Of a stretch of DNA of 34,187 nucleotides, positions 7,644-31,092 are shown piece after piece. Made by a program: the position numbers and the translations under genes. The notes below the pieces were generated by a model. The model made no database searches and had not been told where the DNA came from. It was given only the letters and a program-made list of their open reading frames with translations. Source of the DNA: a virus; the IMG/VR virus record IMGVR_UViG_3300009684_000092, positions 1-34,187 of that record; one strand, 5' to 3'. Every line of letters begins with the position of its first letter. Position 1 is the first letter of the stretch.

Positions 7644-8582
7644 TTAAGAGAAAAAATCCTCAAGTGATGCAATGGGGAGTGATTTCCATCCGATTGCGGT
7701 GAGGATTAATTGTAAAGGCTCAATAAAGGTTTTAGTGAATAATAGGTCTCGATCAATATAGGTGTCCAAGCCAAATTCTGGTGGCAGTTTATCAAGGAAT
7801 GCAATTACATTTTCCCCAGTTGGATTGCCTTTACGAAGGAAGATGTATTTGATTCGGTCACCACCTTTAATATATTGATATTTAGTATTTAACCCCATAG
7901 TTTTTATTAAGTGATTATACATAATAGATGCTCTACTATTCATAGGAGTGCCTTTTATATATGGAACCTTACGTCCATCGGCTCCTACCTTCTGAATATA
8001 TTTTTTAATACTAGTAAGACCACGAGGGAATGCCATCTTTTCAATTGGTTCTTTTTCAAACTCTTCTCGGAATCTTTCAACCTCTGCTTGAATTTCAGAT
8101 TCGGATACCACCATAAGAAGTTTGAATAACTTTTTAAATTCTGTTCGACATATTTTAGGTGTTGAAGATTTAATAGCCTCAATACCTTTCATAACAAGTT
8201 TAGGTTCTTTATATACTACACCTTCACTTGAAATTACATTGAATATGTATCTTTTTTTCGCCTGGATAATTCCAACAGAACAAATTTTTTCTGTTTTCAT
8301 AACCATGGTATTTTTATATGCATTAGTTATGATTTCTAAATTTTTATATCCCCGAGCAATAATAGGTTCAAGGGATGTCTTACCAAAATTTAAAAGAAAC
8401 TCATGTGGATCTTTTGGTTTGCATTTATCAATAACGTCAGATAAACCAATCATAACAGAGTTATGCACACATATATTATTACCAAAAAAATTATGATTGT
8501 TATCTACTTCTATATCATAAACATCATTTTCTATAATTCCTAAATCTTCAATTGTGAAGTTTGATGTGCTTTGTAATCTCAT
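7644..8582 (-). CDS. 43: DNA polymerase gp43, C-terminal part with C-intein
   Basis: Residues 1-41 form the C-terminal fragment of a split intein: NDVYDIEVDNNHNFFGNNIC followed by VHN is intein block F and G with the terminal Asn. The extein then begins with Ser (SVMIGLSDVIDKC) and runs 271 residues as the thumb and C-terminal end of family B polymerase, similar to T4 gp43 (EPIIARGYKNLE, AKKRYIFNV, EPKLVMKGIEAIKSSTPKIC, LRKGNPTGENVIAF). Protein trans-splicing with the product of 9682-11823 would rebuild ...SDTD-SVMIGL..., the catalytic motif C, giving about 856 residues against 898 in T4. Without splicing the polymerase lacks an intact motif C. The start overlaps the endonuclease gene by 35 bp. 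Confidence 0.93.
   Translation of the reverse strand: MRLQSTSNFTIEDLGIIENDVYDIEVDNNHNFFGNNICVHNSVMIGLSDVIDKCKPKDPHEFLLNFGKTSLEPIIARGYKNLEIITNAYKNTMVMKTEKICSVGIIQAKKRYIFNVISSEGVVYKEPKLVMKGIEAIKSSTPKICRTEFKKLFKLLMVVSESEIQAEVERFREEFEKEPIEKMAFPRGLTSIKKYIQKVGADGRKVPYIKGTPMNSRASIMYNHLIKTMGLNTKYQYIKGGDRIKYIFLRKGNPTGENVIAFLDKLPPEFGLDTYIDRDLLFTKTFIEPLQLILTAIGWKSLPIASLEDFFS
8460..8582 (-). other. C-intein of split gp43 intein (41 aa)
   Basis: This covers the 41 codons from Met to the terminal Asn of the C-terminal intein fragment (last residues FFGNNICVHN). The next codon, at 8457-8459, is Ser, the +1 extein nucleophile. The length is typical of canonical split inteins cut at the endonuclease insertion site. 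The partner is the N-intein at 9685-10068. Confidence 0.9.
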
Positions 8583-9672
8583 TTTGTAATCTCTTGTATA
8601 AGTCTGTTTTATTTGTATTGTAATCTGATTCCCAGATAGCTATTGTATCATATCCTCGTTCATTGTAAATAACATTTTTCTTTATTTCATCTAATTCCCA
8701 TACATCCTTGGCAGTACGTTTACCTTGTCCTCTACCTTTTAGAAAATCATTAGGACCATATATCAATGGATTTCCATGATAATGATCCCCTTGAAATTCT
8801 ATAACTAATTTATAGGTTGAACACACAAAATCATAGAAAAAACCTCTTTTATATTTTTCAGAATAAACCCCATACTCTTTATTATACGTAGCATAATAAC
8901 ATTTAGTATTGTTAAATAAACCCCATGTAATTATTTCATTAAATAATTCTTGGCTTATTTTGGAATACCCTTTACGATTAATATTTTTTATATAATCATC
9001 AAATTTTAGATCACCAAGTTCTCCATAAGTTGATATGTAATTCTCTCTAGTTCTTTTGATGAAATGTTTAGATATTTTTTTAAGGTAATCAGTAAATTTT
9101 TTATGACCAAGTTCTCCGTATATCCTTATATAATTTTCTAATGTTTGCCCTTTTTCTGAATTAACCTTAATATATTTTTCAGTCCCAAGATATTCTTCAC
9201 TATTAGTGTATCTTTGTTTTTCACAATACTTATTCCATTTAATAAGTCCTAGTTCTTGCCCATGTCTTTTTACACATAATTCTAAAGTAACTGATCTAGA
9301 TTTATTAAAATCTAAGAAATCCTGTTCACTAAAACCATATTTTTCTTTTTTATAATCAAATGTATTAGTATTGGATTGTTTTTCACAATATTCTTTCCAT
9401 CTTATAGAGCCTTCTTTATTACCATATGTAAATGTGAAACTATCTAAGGTTTGAGCTTTTCCGAACTCTTGAGCTTTTCTTAAAATATACTCAAGTTCTA
9501 TAAAACTGTTAGGTGGTCTATACGTCATTATAGCTTTAAATCTACTAGTGTGTCTCCTAGATAAAATATAAGTAAAATCACAAACTTTCGTACTATCTAA
9601 AATAGGATAGTTCTTTTTTATAAAAAATTTTAACAATTTACCACCATCAGATTGAGTCTGTATCGCTTGCAT
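8548..9672 (-). CDS. Free-standing Vsr-like (EDxHD-type) homing endonuclease, 374 aa
   Basis: The C-terminal 110 residues have a Vsr/PD-(D/E)xK-like nuclease core: FYDFVCSTYKLVIEFQGDHY then HGNP supplies Asp281, Glu292 and His297/His299, and KDVWELDEIKKNVI with IAIWESDYN completes the fold (Asp328, Glu348). Residues 80-235 hold about four repeats of a YG-x-x-G-x-x-K-(W/F)-x-x-Y unit, including EYCEKQ and YTNS motifs, typical DNA-binding modules of phage homing endonucleases. The gene lies between the two halves of split-intein gene 43, the fractured-gene arrangement known from marine phages. It should cleave intein-free 43 alleles to spread the cassette. A late promoter octamer ends 6 bp before its ATG. 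Confidence 0.85.
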   Translation of the reverse strand: MQAIQTQSDGGKLLKFFIKKNYPILDSTKVCDFTYILSRRHTSRFKAIMTYRPPNSFIELEYILRKAQEFGKAQTLDSFTFTYGNKEGSIRWKEYCEKQSNTNTFDYKKEKYGFSEQDFLDFNKSRSVTLELCVKRHGQELGLIKWNKYCEKQRYTNSEEYLGTEKYIKVNSEKGQTLENYIRIYGELGHKKFTDYLKKISKHFIKRTRENYISTYGELGDLKFDDYIKNINRKGYSKISQELFNEIITWGLFNNTKCYYATYNKEYGVYSEKYKRGFFYDFVCSTYKLVIEFQGDHYHGNPLIYGPNDFLKGRGQGKRTAKDVWELDEIKKNVIYNERGYDTIAIWESDYNTNKTDLYKRLQNEITKHIKLHN

Positions 9673-9678
9673 ATAATG

Positions 9679-9686
9679 TATTTATA
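9679..9686 (-). promoter_or_regulatory. Late promoter (TATAAATA) for the Vsr-like endonuclease
   Basis: The minus strand carries the exact T4 late octamer TATAAATA, overlapping the stop codon of the N-terminal polymerase gene (9682-9684). It ends 6 bp before the ATG at 9672, so the endonuclease mRNA should be leaderless or nearly so. Late expression of homing endonucleases is also known for T4 intron-encoded enzymes. Confidence 0.75.
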
Positions 9687-11823
9687 CAAACGGGAGTTTT
9701 AATGAAAGTATTTTATGCTTTTGAGAATTTAATTCTTCTGGAGTAATCTCTAAAATTTTTCCATCTATAATATTTTCAACAATAATAGAATGGTCCTTTG
9801 TTACAACTACCGTATTACCAGTATCATCTGTAATTTTAAACATTCTTTTTTTAACAGTATGCTTCATAACATACTGTACTTTTTTAGTTTCTATCTGTTT
9901 AGTTTTTTTATTCAATGATATTGTATAATCATTATTTTTAGATATATCCTTTACATAATTTCTATTAAATGAATCATTTTTTATCATTAAACCTATGCTA
10001 GAATTATAATAATCCTCAATGGTAATATTTTTATTATTAATAGAAATAATCGTATCACCTGTAACGGAATCTGTGTCTGACATAATTATTCGATCTTTTG
10101 CAGTAGTATCTTCAAGCGCCAAAGAAAGAAATTTATTAAGTTCACGCTCTGCTGTTTGAACTGCTAATTGGCCTGATAGTGTGATCGCTTCTGCCAATTC
10201 AATATTATAGTATCTACACCAAATATTTGCAAGAGCGCCATAACAGGAATTAAGTAGAATTTTAATTCCCATCTGCTCATTGGAGGCTCGATCAATTTCA
10301 ATGAGAAGTTCAGCATATCGGTTTGACTTCTTATCTGTTACTTCTTTTTCTTTCTGAGCCGTAATCATCAGTTGTTTAATAGTAACACGCTTATTATACA
10401 ACTCTTCCATAAGAGCAGGAAGAAATCCTTGTTTATCTTTTCTAAAACATGCACCATTTGCAGCAATAGCCAAATTGTCTTCTGGATACCATTGATTAAT
10501 ATTAGGATTATCCAAAATCTTTTCAGGTGTTAGACCTTGAACTTTCATATGAGGAACAATAGTTTCTGGACTAATGTTATACTGGACAATTAACATAGGA
10601 TACAATGAGTTAAGGTCATATGTCACAATCCATTCATGCCTACCTGACTGCGCATCTTTAACAAAACCTCCTGCATATTCAGTCTTAAAGGACATTTTAT
10701 TTTGAGGAATCGCAATATGTTTCTTTGCAAGATACCTAAAGATAATAGCGTCCCAAATAGCAACAGTTCCTAATGCATCATTATAATTAGTTCCTGCATA
10801 GTAAGCCAAAGTAAATACAAGCGCAAGTAGTCCCAGTTTTTCTTCAAGTTTAATAATTAACTCGATATCAACAATATTATAGTCAGCATATAAGGTATGA
10901 TTTTTTTCATATAGTTCAGTTAAATTGGAATAACCAGATTCACCATAGTTAATCTTTCCTTCTCCAAGAACCAGATCTGCAATAAAATCTAACTTATAAG
11001 ATTCTTGAGCCCCATATGTATTCAAACAGAATTTCTTAAATAGATCAATATAATCAAGTTGTTGAATACCTGAAATATTAAAGTATGTACATTCCTTTCC
11101 TTTAATAATAACTGATTTTTGTTCAATATTATTCCAAGGGGATAATCGTTTTGCTTCATCGCTTCCAAGAATTCTAGATAAGCGATTTACTAAATATGGA
11201 ATATCATATAGTTTTGTATTCCAACCTGTAATAACATCGGGCGTATTCATTGGGTCGTTCCACCATAAAATAAAATCCGATAGCATTTCGTGCTCAGAAT
11301 CAAATTGATGATACTCAACTTCAATGTGAGAAACTATAGATTTATTTTGATCAAATGGTTTTAGACCCCATTGGATGTAGTTAGAGCTCTTTGAGGATTT
11401 AATGCCAATTAGTGTAATTGTCTCGGTTGCTTCAGTTGCTTCTACAAAGACCCCAGATTTAGCAATCTGTGTTTCAATATCCAGATAGCAGATATCAATT
11501 TGCTTTGCTTTATATTTAATTTCATTTGGAAATTCTGCCTGGATAAATGCAGGTATATGATTTGAATTACCGAATATTTTAAATGACTTAATGTCTTCAT
11601 ATTGCTTCATAAAAGCACGGCAATCACTCATCGAGTCAAATCGCATAGGATCGACGGGGACATCATCAAGTGTTTTCCATTTAGCATTTGGATCTTTAGA
11701 TTCCAAAAACATCTGAGGCCTAAATTTGTAAGTATTATAGATCTTACGACCATCATCATCATATCCTCTATAAAGAAGAGAATTCATCTTTCTTGAAACA
11801 TCTGTATAAAAGCCATTTAGCAT
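9682..11823 (-). CDS. 43: DNA polymerase gp43, N-terminal part with N-intein
   Basis: The 713-aa product has an N-extein of 585 residues with family B polymerase motifs: exonuclease I ICYLDIETQ (Asp115, Glu117), exonuclease II TGWNTKLYDIPY, exonuclease III YNIVDIELI, polymerase motif A TYDLNSLYPMLI, motif B KILLNSCYGALAN and the first part of motif C, IIMSDTD. At that point the chain turns into a 128-aa N-intein (SVTGDTIISI...) and stops. The N-terminus aligns with the T4 gp43 start, so the ATG at 11823 is firm; it lies 6 bp after an early -10 element. The gene heads a unit with the endonuclease and the C-terminal half. It replicates the phage genome with the gp45 clamp and gp44/62 loader. 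Confidence 0.95.
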   Translation of the reverse strand: MLNGFYTDVSRKMNSLLYRGYDDDGRKIYNTYKFRPQMFLESKDPNAKWKTLDDVPVDPMRFDSMSDCRAFMKQYEDIKSFKIFGNSNHIPAFIQAEFPNEIKYKAKQIDICYLDIETQIAKSGVFVEATEATETITLIGIKSSKSSNYIQWGLKPFDQNKSIVSHIEVEYHQFDSEHEMLSDFILWWNDPMNTPDVITGWNTKLYDIPYLVNRLSRILGSDEAKRLSPWNNIEQKSVIIKGKECTYFNISGIQQLDYIDLFKKFCLNTYGAQESYKLDFIADLVLGEGKINYGESGYSNLTELYEKNHTLYADYNIVDIELIIKLEEKLGLLALVFTLAYYAGTNYNDALGTVAIWDAIIFRYLAKKHIAIPQNKMSFKTEYAGGFVKDAQSGRHEWIVTYDLNSLYPMLIVQYNISPETIVPHMKVQGLTPEKILDNPNINQWYPEDNLAIAANGACFRKDKQGFLPALMEELYNKRVTIKQLMITAQKEKEVTDKKSNRYAELLIEIDRASNEQMGIKILLNSCYGALANIWCRYYNIELAEAITLSGQLAVQTAERELNKFLSLALEDTTAKDRIIMSDTDSVTGDTIISINNKNITIEDYYNSSIGLMIKNDSFNRNYVKDISKNNDYTISLNKKTKQIETKKVQYVMKHTVKKRMFKITDDTGNTVVVTKDHSIIVENIIDGKILEITPEELNSQKHKILSLKLPFV
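9685..10068 (-). other. N-intein of split gp43 intein (128 aa)
   Basis: It begins SVTGDTIISI (block A, with Ser instead of Cys as residue 1) and contains a KKVQYVMKHTVKKRMFKI strand pair and VVVTKDHSIIV (block B, with the conserved T-x-x-H). It resembles the archaeal family B polymerase inteins inserted at the same DTD motif. No endonuclease domain is present; the break comes where that domain normally sits. Confidence 0.92.
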
Positions 11824-11935: not shown

Positions 11936-12976
11936 ATGCAACAAGAAAAAGCATTAAAATTATTTATACCTGAAGGATTAACCTATAAAAGCCCATTCAC
12001 ATATTTCGTAGAACTGATACCACTAAAACTTCTATATTACGGGTGTAAATGGGCCGATTATAAAGGGAGCCCATGCGATTCCTCTATATTTATGACGGAA
12101 TCTGGTTATCAAACTTCATCGGTTCAAATGAAGGAGTTGATAAAAGAATACGGACTAGATGCGTTTAATGTTCTTTGTATTCAACACTATACAACTGGGC
12201 AAGAAGCTCGGGAAGCAGAAGAAAAACATCTTAAGAATGTTAATGCTAGAACTAACCCAAGATATATTAATAAATCTAATGGCGGAACTAATTTCTACGG
12301 CGGCCCACATTCAGAGGAGACTAAACAAAAACTGAGTATAGCTGCTAAAAATAGACCGGCTATAACAGAAGAAACAAAAACTAAAATAAGTATAGCGTTA
12401 ACTGGAAAACCGGGGCATCCACAAACAGAGGGTACAATAAGAAAAATAAGTGAAAAACAAAAGGGTGTACCAAGGGTACCTTTAAGCTTAGAATCTTGTG
12501 ATAAAATATCTAAAAAGTTAATGGGTAGACCAAGGCCTGAAGAGGTAAAAAGAAAGATCAGCAAAACTAAGAAAAACAAAATAGCTTTTAATAATGGTAT
12601 TAAAACAATTTTTGCTGATAAATTACCAATAGGAGATGAGTGGGTTCCTGGTGTATTTTTAATAGATAAATTAAGAGAACTTTGTGGTAATTCAACTAGA
12701 GGTAAATTATGTTTCAATAATGGAGTTAAAACTATAATATCTAAAGAAAAACCAGAAGGAGATGAGTGGGTTCCTGGTAGGCATAAACAAAAATCCTTAA
12801 CACAAGAAGAAAAATTACAAAAAAAGGCAAATAGAAAGAAACGACCTATTTGTAAATGGTATACTAATGGAATCATTAATAAGCTTTGTGAAAATCAACC
12901 GGAAGGAGCAGAGTGGAAACCCGGTATAACTAAACACAAACTTATTATTTCTGATCCTTCTTTACAAAATTCTTAA
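11936..12976 (+). CDS. GIY-YIG homing endonuclease with NUMOD3 motifs, 346 aa
   Basis: The N-terminal domain has a GIY-YIG-like start (SPFTYFVELIPLKLLYYGCK, residues about 19-38) and the second core GYQTSSVQMKELIKEYGLDA with the conserved Glu in EAEEKHL. GPHSEETKQKLSIAAKNRP and the next three similar helices (about 120-220) are NUMOD3 DNA-binding motifs. The C-terminus holds three repeats of NG-x(8-9)-P-x-G-x-EW-x-PG (around 220, 262 and 314), probably further DNA-binding units. The gene is on the plus strand, opposite to everything around it, between gene 43 and the Ntn-hydrolase gene, whose 3' end it overlaps by 32 bp. It is a likely selfish intergenic insertion. Confidence 0.85.
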   Translation: MQQEKALKLFIPEGLTYKSPFTYFVELIPLKLLYYGCKWADYKGSPCDSSIFMTESGYQTSSVQMKELIKEYGLDAFNVLCIQHYTTGQEAREAEEKHLKNVNARTNPRYINKSNGGTNFYGGPHSEETKQKLSIAAKNRPAITEETKTKISIALTGKPGHPQTEGTIRKISEKQKGVPRVPLSLESCDKISKKLMGRPRPEEVKRKISKTKKNKIAFNNGIKTIFADKLPIGDEWVPGVFLIDKLRELCGNSTRGKLCFNNGVKTIISKEKPEGDEWVPGRHKQKSLTQEEKLQKKANRKKRPICKWYTNGIINKLCENQPEGAEWKPGITKHKLIISDPSLQNS

Positions 12977-13859
12977 AACTTAAAAGTTTGCGGCTAGAAA
13001 TAATCTCAAAGAATGTTTTATTGGTTTCATTAGATAATTTATTATAATCAAATTCTACCTTAGAAAAGATAGGACGGTAATGCAAAGTACATTCGGACGG
13101 TACTAATAGTAGAGTACCTGTGGTGCACATATCGCCTTTCTTAGGATCTCCCATACGAATAGGATTCATGAATACGTCCGTATTAGGAGATTGTGACATA
13201 GCATCGAGAAGACCGCTTGGCTCTACTATTTTGGTATCACGTAAATAATTATTAACAATCTTCCATCGTTCTTCTGAACTAGCTCTTGCCTTTTTTACAC
13301 TAGGATCATCGGAATTTTCAGAATAACCTAACATAGGCATATCAATACCATGATTGGTACGAACAGCATATCTATCCTTCTTTGTAATCTCCTTAAGATT
13401 ATAGACATACTCACGAGGTACTTCCTTTGTAGAAGCTGCTTTCTTTATAGTAAAGCCGCCTTCTAATAGATAACAAGTATCACGATTAAATATAAAGGTA
13501 GCACCTGCAAGTTCATTATCAATGAGATATTTTGCAGCCGTTTTTGGATCTTTGAGTAATAAAGCACTACGTATTGCAAGACCATCAGGAGAAACCATAG
13601 GCTTCTTAGATTTTTTCTTTGAAAGAACCTTCTCTCCTTCTTTTTCATCAGACTTTACTGAGAATGATGCAGATATAATAGAAAGCCCGTGTTCATTAAT
13701 ACCCTCAGTCCAACGGGTCATCTGGTCATCAATATATAACCGTTGAACATCATTTCGGTTAGAATTGATTACTTTAATTTCCGTTGCATAATTTCTGTCC
13801 CTATTTTTGGAACCGCAAAATCCGAACCCCTTAATATATCGAATGGCAACTACACACAT
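12945..13859 (-). CDS. Ntn-hydrolase-like protein (C45/choloylglycine-hydrolase type), 304 aa
   Basis: The protein begins MCVVAIRYIKGFGFCGSKNR. Removal of Met1 would expose Cys2 as an N-terminal nucleophile. The NEHGLSIISASF strand, TFIFNRDTCYLLEG and RYAVRTNHG are typical of the C45/acyltransferase and bile-salt-hydrolase branch of Ntn hydrolases, where the Asn of RTNHG helps form the active site. Such enzymes cut amide bonds (penicillin, N-acyl groups, peptides) or mature themselves. The phage substrate is unknown. A late promoter ends 6 bp before the ATG, so it should be expressed late from a leaderless mRNA; a role in lysis, signalling or virion maturation is only conjecture. Confidence 0.65.
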   Translation of the reverse strand: MCVVAIRYIKGFGFCGSKNRDRNYATEIKVINSNRNDVQRLYIDDQMTRWTEGINEHGLSIISASFSVKSDEKEGEKVLSKKKSKKPMVSPDGLAIRSALLLKDPKTAAKYLIDNELAGATFIFNRDTCYLLEGGFTIKKAASTKEVPREYVYNLKEITKKDRYAVRTNHGIDMPMLGYSENSDDPSVKKARASSEERWKIVNNYLRDTKIVEPSGLLDAMSQSPNTDVFMNPIRMGDPKKGDMCTTGTLLLVPSECTLHYRPIFSKVEFDYNKLSNETNKTFFEIISSRKLLSFKNFVKKDQK

Positions 13860-13865
13860 ATGTTA

Positions 13866-13873
13866 TATTTATA
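13866..13873 (-). promoter_or_regulatory. Late promoter (TATAAATA) for the Ntn-hydrolase gene
   Basis: The exact octamer lies on the minus strand, with 6 bp to the ATG at 13859. Because Cys2 must directly follow Met1 for an Ntn enzyme, the start codon is well fixed, which makes this a good case for a leaderless late mRNA. Confidence 0.75.
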
Positions 13874-16109: not shown

Positions 16110-16907
16110 ATGCAACCTATAAAATTATTTATACCTAAAGGATTAACATGTAAAAGTCCTTTTACTTATATTATCGAACATATTCCATCCTATAGACTAT
16201 ATTTTGGATGTAAATATGGAAAACGGGTAATAAAAGAATGTGATTCATTAATCTTAATGACTGAAGAAGGATATCAAACTTCTTCTAAAGCTATTAAAGA
16301 ATTAATTAAAGAATACGGAATAGATTCATTTAGAATTCTTTATATTCGCCATTATATGACTGAACAAGAAGTAAGAATAGCAGAATCTAAATTTCTTCAT
16401 ACAGTGAATGCAAAAAATAATCCGAGATATATTAATAATTCAAATGGAAACGAAGGATTTTATCGTAATGGACCGCATTCTGAAGAATCTAAGAAGAAAA
16501 TGAGTAATGCTAAATTAGGTAAAATATTATTGCCGTCACATTGTAAAAATATAAGTCTTGCAGTTATAAAAAGATACCAAGAAATGACTCCTGAAATAAA
16601 AGAAGAATTATTTCAAAGTATGAGTATTGCTCAATTAAAACGGCGAGAAATCGAAACTATTGAACAAAAAGAAATGGCTAGTAAAAATATAAGTATAGCT
16701 AAAATAGGTTCAACTTTATCAGATGCTCATTGTCAAAATATAAGTATTGCCCATCAAAATAAATCTCCAGAACAAAAAGAAAGAGAACGCCAATTTAAAA
16801 AATCTAATGCAACTGGAAATAAACTTTATGATAAGATTGGAGAAAAATCCAGAAGATTCAAAGAACAACCCGAAGATCCTTTATGGATTCCAAGAATACC
16901 TATATGA
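16110..16907 (+). CDS. GIY-YIG homing endonuclease, paralogue 2, 265 aa
   Basis: It is clearly related to the protein at 11936-12976 over the first 130 residues: KLFIPKGLTCKSPFTYIIEH, then YRLYFGCKYG, GYQTSSKAIKELIKEYGIDS and NPRYINNSNG. The core GIY-YIG elements and the conserved Glu (RIAESKFLH) are present. NUMOD3-like helices follow (GPHSEESKKKMSNAKLGK and repeats with NISIA). The C-terminus keeps only a degraded version of the PG repeats (LWIPRIPI). It lies between gene 44 and a small gene, on the opposite strand. A 7-bp stem-loop ATGACTG/CAGTCAT (16904-16920) overlaps its stop and may end or protect the transcript. Confidence 0.8.
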   Translation: MQPIKLFIPKGLTCKSPFTYIIEHIPSYRLYFGCKYGKRVIKECDSLILMTEEGYQTSSKAIKELIKEYGIDSFRILYIRHYMTEQEVRIAESKFLHTVNAKNNPRYINNSNGNEGFYRNGPHSEESKKKMSNAKLGKILLPSHCKNISLAVIKRYQEMTPEIKEELFQSMSIAQLKRREIETIEQKEMASKNISIAKIGSTLSDAHCQNISIAHQNKSPEQKERERQFKKSNATGNKLYDKIGEKSRRFKEQPEDPLWIPRIPI

Positions 16908-27724: not shown

Positions 27725-28141
27725 TTAATTTTTCCATGCATCCAGAATAGAATCCAAATAACCCTTTTGTTCAGTTGCATTAGATTTTGCCTGATCTTTA
27801 TTATCAGTTTCTGCAAGAATGTCTTCCATTAAAGCAATCTTATTATATATCAATTGATCACAGTATGTCTTTTTCAAACGAATATCAGCAATTGATGATG
27901 ATTCAATTGCTGAAGTATATAGCACTAAAGGCGATGTATTTTCAATAATTGGAGAAGTAAGAACAGTCATTACAATTCCAGTATCTGGATTTGTTCTTTT
28001 GACAAATTCCAAAGGTACACTTAAAATAATATAATTAGAAGATGAATCGGTAGATACTTCACCTATTAGTTGTCTTCCTGATATGGTATTATAAACACGA
28101 ATATCAAGTTTATCAATAGTTTCTAGTAATTCTTTACTCAT
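27725..28141 (-). CDS. Hypothetical protein between uvsW and 55, 138 aa
   Basis: Not recognised by name. The first half has a small-barrel pattern, DIRVYNTISGRQLIGEVSTD then NYIILSVPLEFVKR, similar to Sm-like or SH3-like folds found in a conserved T4-like marine phage protein next to uvsW. The C-terminus is helical (EDILAETDNKDQAKSNATEQ). The ATG overlaps the uvsW stop (28138-28141), so it is coupled to UvsW production. Confidence 0.7.
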   Translation of the reverse strand: MSKELLETIDKLDIRVYNTISGRQLIGEVSTDSSSNYIILSVPLEFVKRTNPDTGIVMTVLTSPIIENTSPLVLYTSAIESSSIADIRLKKTYCDQLIYNKIALMEDILAETDNKDQAKSNATEQKGYLDSILDAWKN

Positions 28142-29571
28142 GGTAGGTCAATTTCATATATCTTATAATCAAACTGTTCAGTATTATATATGGCTATTCT
28201 AGAAACTGCATGCTGTAAGGTATAATTCTTCTTAGATTTCCATGAAAAGTTATCGGATATATCATATAGAGTAGTTGGCTTACCATTATCTGATTTACGA
28301 AGACCACGACCAATTGATTGAAGAACTCTTATTTGAGATTTATTAGGAGCAGCAAAGATAATAGTATGAATGTTTCTAATATTCGTTCCTGTTGCGAAGC
28401 ATTGGCTAGAAGCACATATAATAGCATTTGTTTCTGTTTCTGTTATTGATCTAATTTCTTCTCTATCTTTTGCAGCAACTTCCCCAGAAACATAAAATAT
28501 TTTACGAGTAGGATCTGTTGAAGCACCAACTAATTTTTCATATAGGGGTTTACCATGTTTCTTAACAAGATTGAATAGTATTAATGTATTACCCTTTTGA
28601 TCAAGGGCTAAATTGGTTATAAAATCATTACGCCCATCATGTCCAACTATGACATTAATTTCATTTTGATAATCTAACTTTGATACCAGTTTCTTAAGTT
28701 CTTGATTATGATTCAATACAAGGCACTTAATTTTTAATTGTGCAATTGTATCGGAATCCATAAGTTGCTTTGTGGTAATAACTTTATTGACAGGACCAAA
28801 GTTACCAATCAGCACTAACTCATTACATTTGGCCCCATCAAGTGTACCAGTAGTACCAATTCTATACCTTGCATTAACAAGATTACCCATAATAGTATTA
28901 AGACTTTTTGCAACGAACTGATGGGCTTCATCACCAATTACCATACCAAATTGGGTAAACCATGCTTTAGGAAGATTGACGGCGGATTGCCAAGTTGAAC
29001 ATACTACCCGAGCTGATATATCAAGTTTCTCTTGGCCAGAATAAATTTGATGAATTTCTGATTCAGCATCAAAGTTTGGATCTGTTGAACTATAATCAGC
29101 AAAATCAGATTTCATTTGAGATGTAAGAGCAACAGTAGGAACTATAATAAGAACCTTGCCTTCAAAGTTATCAAGATACCATCTAATTATTGCATAAATA
29201 ATTAATGATTTTCCTGAATTATGATGTATAATATCATTTTGATAATAACATTCTTTATCATAATCTAAACTAAAATCATACCAATCCTGCGGTTTAACAG
29301 AAGTAACTTTTACTATTCTTGAATTTTTATTATCTAATATATCATTAACCTTTAATGATTGTAATGTAATAAATTCATTACCTTTTTGTACTTGATGAAA
29401 ATCCGAACCAATTATTTCAGTTCCATCATCAAATTGAATTTTAAGGCCTGGGCCATATTTCTTATATGCCCCGATAACAAGTTTTAGACCATTTGGAGTA
29501 GGAAGTTTTATAGTTTTACCTTTATGATAAGCATCATATAAATTCTTAAATGTGTGTTTTTTTAGCTCCAT
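28138..29571 (-). CDS. uvsW: UvsW helicase, C-terminal part with C-intein
   Basis: Residues 1-118 are the large C-terminal fragment of an atypically split intein: FKNLYDAYHKGKTIKLPTPN, the block B-like DDGTEIIGSDFHQVQ, and blocks F/G, YDFSLDYDKECYYQNDIIHH plus the final Asn. The extein then begins SGKSLIIYAIIRWYLDNFEG, the second half of Walker A, followed by DEAH box GDEAHQF, KVITTKQLMDSDTIAQL, FYVSGEV and SIGRGLRKS of the SF2 helicase (359 residues). Trans-splicing with 29692-30162 gives SPTA-SGKS and about 501 residues, against 503 in T4 UvsW. UvsW unwinds branched DNA and R-loops and shuts off origin replication. A GTG 36 bp upstream is a less likely start. Confidence 0.9.
   Translation of the reverse strand: MELKKHTFKNLYDAYHKGKTIKLPTPNGLKLVIGAYKKYGPGLKIQFDDGTEIIGSDFHQVQKGNEFITLQSLKVNDILDNKNSRIVKVTSVKPQDWYDFSLDYDKECYYQNDIIHHNSGKSLIIYAIIRWYLDNFEGKVLIIVPTVALTSQMKSDFADYSSTDPNFDAESEIHQIYSGQEKLDISARVVCSTWQSAVNLPKAWFTQFGMVIGDEAHQFVAKSLNTIMGNLVNARYRIGTTGTLDGAKCNELVLIGNFGPVNKVITTKQLMDSDTIAQLKIKCLVLNHNQELKKLVSKLDYQNEINVIVGHDGRNDFITNLALDQKGNTLILFNLVKKHGKPLYEKLVGASTDPTRKIFYVSGEVAAKDREEIRSITETETNAIICASSQCFATGTNIRNIHTIIFAAPNKSQIRVLQSIGRGLRKSDNGKPTTLYDISDNFSWKSKKNYTLQHAVSRIAIYNTEQFDYKIYEIDLP
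29218..29571 (-). other. C-intein of split UvsW intein (118 aa)
   Basis: This is the long C-terminal fragment, from Met to the terminal Asn at 29218-29220; the next codon is Ser (29215-29217). It contains everything except the first strand pair of the intein, the feature of N-terminally (atypically) split inteins. Confidence 0.87.
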
Positions 29572-29714
29572 TTTATTAATAATGTTTCTCCTGAAATTAT
29601 AGCCCACCCATGTAATCTAGAAATATTATCTTCATATAATAATCGTTCTAAATATTCTAAATGTTCGATTACATTAGAAGATTTAATAGAATCAATCGCT
29701 AATTTCAGCCTCAA
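29562..29714 (-). CDS. Small overlapping frame between the UvsW halves, 50 aa
   Basis: This third frame has no ATG but can start at TTG (29714). It reads RLKLAIDSIKSSNVIEHLEY, then LERLLYEDNISRLHGWAIIS and GETLLIKWS. It begins within the N-intein codons and ends inside the first codons of the C-intein gene, filling the 120 bp between the two. The composition is protein-like (one amphipathic helix and a beta end), but homology is unknown. It may be a gene, the relic of a lost endonuclease or spacer protein, or chance in AT-rich DNA. Confidence 0.35.
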   Translation of the reverse strand: MRLKLAIDSIKSSNVIEHLEYLERLLYEDNISRLHGWAIISGETLLIKWS

Positions 29715-30162
29715 TTAATGTATTACCATCTAAACATGCGGTAGGACTTATAGTTAAGCATCTGCCTTCCAATATAGCATGAACAAATGCGTCCAGTTGA
29801 TAATCTCTTAATTCTACTTCTGTTCCTCTAACAGTAATAGGAAGTGAATCTGCGTATTCAGCTAATTCTTCTCGTGTAATATTATGACGATATGTAACAT
29901 CCTTGGAAATATTAGAAGTATAATTTCGGGATTTGCAGAACTTTAAAAGATTAGGTAATAGACCGTATGGCAGAGTTCGTGTTCTAAGATTATAGATTCT
30001 AATTTTACCATCGAAGAGTTTTGCTCGTACGGATGGCATATATTTAGCATTTGGTAACTCAAAAGTAAAATACTCATTTATTTCTTGAAGAATACCAGAA
30101 TCATTTGAGTCAATTCTCAAATATACTTCATTGATCTTTGTTATCTGAATATCTTCATTCAT
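29692..30162 (-). CDS. uvsW: UvsW helicase, N-terminal part with very short N-intein
   Basis: The N-extein (142 residues) matches the T4 UvsW N-terminal domain: VYLRIDSNDSGILQEINEYF, then GKIRIYNLRTRTLPYGLLPN and VELRDYQLDAFVHAILEGRC with the Q-motif-like RDYQ. It ends TISPTA, the first half of Walker A. The next 14 residues, CLDGNTLIEAEISD, are intein block A starting with Cys1, and then the frame stops. The ATG at 30162 is chosen because it lies 4 bp after the uvsY stop; the longer frame to 30195 overlaps uvsY. Alone this piece cannot bind ATP, so trans-splicing with 28138-29571 is needed. Confidence 0.88.
   Translation of the reverse strand: MNEDIQITKINEVYLRIDSNDSGILQEINEYFTFELPNAKYMPSVRAKLFDGKIRIYNLRTRTLPYGLLPNLLKFCKSRNYTSNISKDVTYRHNITREELAEYADSLPITVRGTEVELRDYQLDAFVHAILEGRCLTISPTACLDGNTLIEAEISD
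29695..29736 (-). other. N-intein of split UvsW intein (14 aa)
   Basis: Cys1 is encoded at 29734-29736, and the fragment CLDGNTLIEAEISD ends with TGA (29692-29694). Only the first beta hairpin of the intein is present. At 14 residues it is at the short end of naturally split N-inteins. Confidence 0.85.
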
Positions 30163-30628: not shown

Positions 30629-31078
30629 TTATTGGAATTCAAAAAAGTCATATCGAAATACGATGTCAACGTATGCATATTCAACATCAGTATTTTGAAC
30701 ATTTAATTCTATTGAACCTATACTTGATGGAAAGGCATTAACAAATTTAACAGCTCGTGATATATTGTTTTTGCTAGTAAGGAAATTCAACATAATATCA
30801 CAGGCTAACATTGTATTTGCAGTAGTATTTGCCATAATCCAACCGAATGCTTCATCATACACAACTAGATTTTCATCCATACCAACTCTGATAGTAAGAG
30901 TATCATATACAATATGATCAGACGAAACATAACCAGCAAAGTTTCGATAGGTTGCAGAAATTTCCCCAATAGAAACACCAGGAAAGGTTGCAGATACTGC
31001 AAACCGCTCAATTGTTTTAAATGTATCAGAGCCGATACTTAATTTAAAACCTGTAAGAGGTAATAGATTATTATTCAT
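30629..31078 (-). CDS. Tail-tube-like (gp19-family) virion protein, 149 aa
   Basis: The sequence LTGFKLSIGSDTFKTIERFA, then FPGVSIGEISATYRNFAGYV, VYDTLTIRVGMDENLVVYDE and a C-terminal FPSSIGSIELNVQNTDVEYA with YVDIVFRYDFFEF fits the beta-sandwich fold shared by T4-like tail tube gp19 and tube initiator gp54-like proteins. T4 places gene 19 elsewhere, so this copy between 23 and uvsY may be a second tube-like or tail-completion protein. It has a private late promoter with 6 bp to the ATG and a terminator upstream, so it is a separate late unit. Confidence 0.6.
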   Translation of the reverse strand: MNNNLLPLTGFKLSIGSDTFKTIERFAVSATFPGVSIGEISATYRNFAGYVSSDHIVYDTLTIRVGMDENLVVYDEAFGWIMANTTANTMLACDIMLNFLTSKNNISRAVKFVNAFPSSIGSIELNVQNTDVEYAYVDIVFRYDFFEFQ

Positions 31079-31084
31079 ATACTA

Positions 31085-31092
31085 TATTTATA
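31085..31092 (-). promoter_or_regulatory. Late promoter (TATAAATA) for the tube-like gene
   Basis: The exact octamer lies on the minus strand and ends 6 bp before the ATG at 31078. It lies just after the gene 23 terminator, giving a clean start of the next late unit and a leaderless mRNA. Confidence 0.8.

Follow-up and report, generated by a model that had tools for sequence, protein, structure and literature searches.

The helicase gene uvsW of a T4-like virus (IMG/VR record IMGVR_UViG_3300009684_000092, 34,187 bases, analysed at full length and called the window here) lies in two same-strand cistrons in identical frame, with one part of an intein at the end of the first and the other part at the start of the second. 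We consider it very likely that a class 1 mini-intein in the Walker A motif of UvsW was split by a 126-nucleotide (nt) insertion and that its halves trans-splice to give a UvsW of 501 residues. Cistron 1 runs from an ATG at 30162 to a stop at 29692-29694 and ends SPTA-CLDGNTLIEAEISD-stop, while cistron 2 runs from an ATG at 29569-29571 to a stop at 28138-28140 and encodes 118 residues up to DIIHHN, followed by SGKS. The joined exteins (142 + 359 = 501 residues) restore an intact Walker A, SPTA-SGKS, and the uvsW products of two related contigs, L001 and L083, likewise have 501 residues. An earlier reading made from the letters alone (the sequence-only reading) had described both gene ends, the rejoined motif and the 501 residues of the joined exteins in these terms, and all of this is borne out. 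The features, all on the minus strand, are as follows.

29737-30162, minus strand: UvsW N-extein, 142 residues, ending ...LTISPTA (UvsW_N in Pfam, E 4.9e-11; 63-68% identity with the L083 and L001 N-exteins).
29695-29736, minus strand: intein N-fragment CLDGNTLIEAEISD, 14 residues with Cys1 (gapless alignment with residues 1-14 of the cis inteins of L001 and L083).
29692-29694, minus strand: TGA stop that ends cistron 1, read from the sequence.
29569-29694, minus strand: 126-nt insertion relative to the cis inteins, made up of TGA, 120 nt and ATG, with five in-frame stops beyond the TGA.
29562-29714, minus strand: ORF2, an open reading frame (ORF) of 50 codons in the +1 frame without a Met, reaching from inside the end of cistron 1 to 10 nt into cistron 2.
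29218-29571, minus strand: intein C-fragment, 118 residues including the start Met, ending DIIHHN (block B GSDFH, block G HHN; 72-74% identity with the cis inteins).
28141-29217, minus strand: UvsW C-extein, 359 residues, starting SGKS with Ser+1 (ResIII, E 5e-15; Helicase_C, E 4.1e-7; phrog_9690 DNA helicase, E 3.1e-88).

The host protein is recognisable as UvsW, with a UvsW_N match in the N-part, superfamily 2 (SF2) helicase matches in the C-part (ResIII, DEAD and Helicase_C in Pfam), about 50% identity to phage UvsW C-exteins and a position beside uvsY. The sequence-only reading had also raised the possibility that the two genes are one continuous frame broken by a sequencing error. Since the TGA and the 120 nt between the halves hold six in-frame stops in total, no single base error can yield one frame, and two errors would leave an extra segment of 40 residues that is found in neither cis lineage.

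The segments between the exteins have the hallmarks of an intein. Cys1, the block B His (GSDFH), the penultimate His and terminal Asn (HHN) and Ser+1 are all kept, and they are conserved in two cis relatives. When the family profile was compared with the PDB, CatC (6dsl, E 4.3e-8) was the best sequence match and VidaL (6vgv) was also matched (E 6.4e-5), with the VidaL alignment opening at the start of the window C-part (MELKKHTFKNLYDAY against MIEEKKVTVQELRELY). An AlphaFold2 (AF2) model of the window read-through (mean predicted local distance difference test score, pLDDT, 64.5) has a strand at residues 13-19 (block mean pLDDT 83) and VidaL as its top Foldseek match (E 3.5e-7; VIA Z 12.6 over 124 residues at 2.9 A). 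VidaL also comes first for the model of the L001 cis intein (mean pLDDT 74.1; template modelling (TM) scores 0.81/0.79). The top matches of these models are inteins and HINT-fold proteins, at moderate model confidence, so the structure prediction that the sequence-only reading had proposed as a check came out in its favour. Sequence, profile and fold comparisons thus agree on the intein identity. The two cistrons, the cut right after strand beta2 and the very short N-part with a long C-part are those of an S1 split. Judging by sequence and models, the uvsW intein is most likely a working class 1 split intein of the S1 type.

Using the intein and the C-part of UvsW as queries, we scanned IMG/VR viral contigs. 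In five contigs (L001 and L083-L086), uvsW is one gene with an unbroken intein of 131 residues between SPTA and SGKS; since L083-L086 are identical in sequence here, these represent two independent lineages. The cis inteins share about 70% identity with the window's two halves once these are joined, and their residues 1-14 and 15-131 align with the N-part and the C-part with nothing missing (14 + 117 of 131). The window allele is therefore a cis intein cut between codons 14 and 15 by 126 nt, from TGA to ATG. Because an unbroken intein occupies this residue position in all five contigs, the split pattern does not arise by chance, and these homologues fix the insertion point and the splice junctions. 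At the level of sequence, the comparison is direct evidence of a cis-to-split step. The Walker A is uninterrupted in 153 of the 176 loci fetched (which are not independent), and a search of a genome contig set found no relative of the intein.

Two other kinds of interrupted uvsW turned up among the loci. In L112 (2956-4961), a large intein of the LAGLIDADG type sits at this Walker A site of UvsW, in a frame broken at several places, possibly by sequencing error; this second intein makes the UvsW Walker A a repeated intein target. Separately, uvsW is broken between residues 403 and 405, in the second helicase domain, in L034, L035, L039-L045 and L047-L049, where about 330-345 nt with small ORFs show neither a recognisable intein nor a recognisable intron. 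An Rfam search for introns in the window, L034 and L047 was negative.

The four segments of the split allele (N-extein, N-fragment, C-fragment and C-extein) have ratios of nonsynonymous to synonymous substitution rates (dN/dS) of 0.10-0.19 against L001 and 0.12-0.23 against L083. These values are close to those of the cis-cis comparison and fit purifying selection, and since synonymous sites are near saturation, they reflect long-run constraint rather than constraint since the split.

Several points weigh against a working trans-splicing intein. We found one split allele only, every other relative being cis or intein-free, and decay might not yet be visible if the split is recent. ORF2 may encode, or once have encoded, a 40-residue tail of the natural N-part. 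The AF2 models were built from three sequences, with just the top one of five being good and with pLDDT below 50 at the C-terminal junction. The intein profile search gave a divided result, with matches to CatC and VidaL in the PDB and none for the window C-part alone to any intein family in Pfam or NCBIfam, including TIGR01445, whose score for the L083 cis intein, 17.6 bits (E 0.0058), is itself below the cut-off of 24.5. Finally, splicing itself is predicted from sequence and models.

The main caveat on the 14-residue N-part is ORF2, which looks coding and which the sequence-only reading had missed. It starts inside the N-fragment and leaves the gap open in the +1 frame, and the codon score of its gap part lies within the range of this phage's genes; among dinucleotide-matched shuffles, 0.2% are both open and as high-scoring in any forward frame. 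The true N-part could accordingly be longer, with ORF2 as the tail of cistron 1 (about 55 residues, 14 of intein and 40 of tail) overlapping the start of cistron 2 and still trans-splicing, and the 1-nt indel that would put it out of frame would have arisen by recent mutation or, with lower probability, in assembly. This is favoured by a frame that stays open across the whole gap, lacks a Met and closes 10 nt into cistron 2, and by the coding score of its gap part. On the other hand, the antisense frame of the gap scores equally well, so the coding signal is not strand-specific. The tail also has no homologue and is absent from both cis lineages, and indels are rare in short-read contigs, should this be one. 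We regard a longer N-part as unlikely. Apart from an N-part tail shifted by a 1-nt change, ORF2 may be a coupling mini-ORF or a remnant of an inserted gene. The inserted segment gave no credible match when searched as DNA and as ORF2 protein. No endonuclease match was found in the 120-nt gap, and an arrangement of the fractured-gene type, with an endonuclease between the halves, was not seen.

A still less probable explanation, and one we doubt strongly, is that the insertion ruined the intein and left a dead allele, so that the phage either lacks a functional UvsW or employs the two pieces as proteins in their own right. This would fit the finding of a single such allele, and other phages (L034, L047 and others) do have uvsW in two parts without a visible intein. 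However, both halves are intact with all catalytic residues kept, dN/dS resembles that of the cis alleles, the cut sits where natural S1 splits work (PMC13014065), and a start codon in the phage's usual context lies exactly at the cut. We reject a single polypeptide across the gap, a cis intein with a 40-residue insert made by translational bypassing or two opposite frameshifts, as extremely improbable, since, although a +1-frame ORF bridges both cistrons, it would require a 120-nt hop or two opposite recoding events, the sequence on inspection shows neither take-off and landing codons that match nor a slippery site at GAT-TGA, and cistron 2 has its own ATG in the usual phage context.

The start codons of the two cistrons resemble those of other genes of this phage. 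Upstream of the ATG at 30162 stands TTAATAAT, which resembles the sequence before other starts in the window, and cistron 2 starts in the context ATTAATAAA-ATG; the gene starts checked in the window have AT-rich triplets upstream, such as AATAAT or AATAAA. An AGGAG lying 16 nt upstream was considered as the start signal of cistron 2 and dropped, because, this distant AGGAG apart, no gene start checked in the window has a Shine-Dalgarno sequence. In three genes, a T4-late-promoter-like motif, TATAAATA, is found 6 nt upstream of the start codon (motif at 9670-9686, 13857-13873 and 31076-31092, minus strand), although the count of such motifs alone is not significant (5 vs 1.7 expected). Late transcripts may be leaderless, given this motif near starts and the checked starts without a normally spaced Shine-Dalgarno sequence.

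Under the trans-splicing model, which we prefer, a class 1 mini-intein (Cys1, terminal Asn, Ser+1) in the Walker A loop would have been broken between residues 14 and 15 by the 126-nt insertion. The upstream gene would then give UvsW residues 1-142 with the 14-residue intein N-fragment (strands beta1-beta2), and the downstream gene a new Met with the remaining 117 intein residues, followed by UvsW residues 143-501. The two fragments would assemble into a single HINT fold, the intein would leave by the standard route of thioester, branched ester and Asn cyclisation, with ligation of the exteins as SPTA-SGKS. We infer association, trans-splicing and helicase dependence from the cistrons, split point, catalytic residues, homology and cis relatives that are seen directly. 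Since the Walker A is cut between SPTA and SGKS, it is a sound inference that UvsW would depend on splicing. We see about an even chance that the split arose in one step and without a homing endonuclease, the small insertion having brought in a stop, a new start codon and a coupling ORF in the +1 frame and left a working 14-residue N-part, the shortest known in nature, at the P-loop of a recombination helicase.

Elsewhere in the locus, uvsW is flanked on one side by uvsY (identified as UvsY by Pfam search) and on the other by a small gene, followed by a gene at the position that the gp55 sigma factor normally takes. The same genome holds a second split intein, of the textbook type, in a family B DNA polymerase gene at 7644-11823 on the minus strand, and this counts for a split-intein reading of uvsW. 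Its parts are as follows.

9682-11823, minus strand: polymerase N-part, with an intein N-fragment of about 128 residues (SVTGDTII...) at its end.
8548-9672, minus strand: separate gene between the polymerase halves, with a weak nuclease match.
7644-8582, minus strand: polymerase C-part, starting with a 41-residue intein C-fragment that ends VHN|SV.

This intein has Ser1 and Ser+1, and its closest relative is the cysteine-less Aes123 PolB1 split intein (9hth, E 7.9e-38). Two opposite-strand genes (11936-12976 and 16110-16907, plus strand) carry NUMOD3 motifs, the second with a SegE-type GIY-YIG match as well; from these motifs, their products look like free-standing homing endonucleases.

Split inteins with short N-parts are valued for having an N-part within reach of peptide synthesis. 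Natural ones are few, and the window adds one of 14 residues. With a split form and unsplit relatives of about 70% identity at one site, the change from cis to split is open to direct comparison, and the inserted segment is testable. The UvsW insertion site may be new, and it also takes a large intein with an endonuclease, as seen in L112.

Natural atypical split inteins have N-parts of 15 to 37 residues (VidaL 16, PolB16 15) and are split at position S1 or S2 (PMC13014065, PMC10189870), and the 15-residue N-part of PolB16 has been called the shortest characterised (PMC10189870). The VidaL N-part counts 16 residues up to the Met of the C-part when the 6vgv chain is aligned with the SCTP-2 intein. 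The claim of the sequence-only reading that this is one of the shortest N-parts holds against PolB16 at 15 (PMC10189870) and VidaL at 16 (PMC13014065); as encoded, its 14 residues are the shortest natural N-part in the sources read.

VidaL (6vgv), the best fold match, is likewise inserted before an SGK motif and cut at the homologous point, directly after strand beta2 (S1, PMC13014065), and its C-part starts similarly (MIEEKKVTVQELRELY against MELKKHTFKNLYDAY). However, identity in fold alignments is about 17-21%, its N-part is longer (16 vs 14 residues), and its close relatives (SCTP-2, PA5oct) are inteins of UvsX/RecA-type recombinases rather than of UvsW. In the PA5oct-group UvsX split intein (NC_071039), the cut is homologous, with an N-part CLPETAKVKIRLSKKQS (17 residues) and a C-part MEYIEKEVTVSELK... 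joined at SG|SGKS, but the halves are separated by a gene of 477 residues that appears to encode an endonuclease, in place of 120 nt. PolB16 OarG (PMC10189870) shares the S1 split and a very short N-part (15) and differs in being cysteine-less (Ser1/Ser+1), in its PolB-type polymerase gene and in a C-part of 168 residues. CatN/CatC, AceL-TerL and GOS-TerL are also atypically split with a short N-part and a long C-part, but they are S2 splits after helix alpha1, with N-parts of 25-37 residues, in terminase genes (PMC13014065, PMC11766414). The mini-inteins of L001 and L083-L086 share the site, with 131 residues and about 70% identity, and differ in being one frame that would splice in cis. No UvsW intein, split or not, was found in the literature searched, where split inteins and UvsW are never named together, though an earlier report of a UvsW split intein may exist outside it; in two of the six papers that mention both an intein and UvsW (PMC3322345 and PMC2988022), UvsW is not the intein host. 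UvsW is apparently a new host gene, while the chemistry and fold of its split intein are already known, making it a new member of the atypical split inteins.
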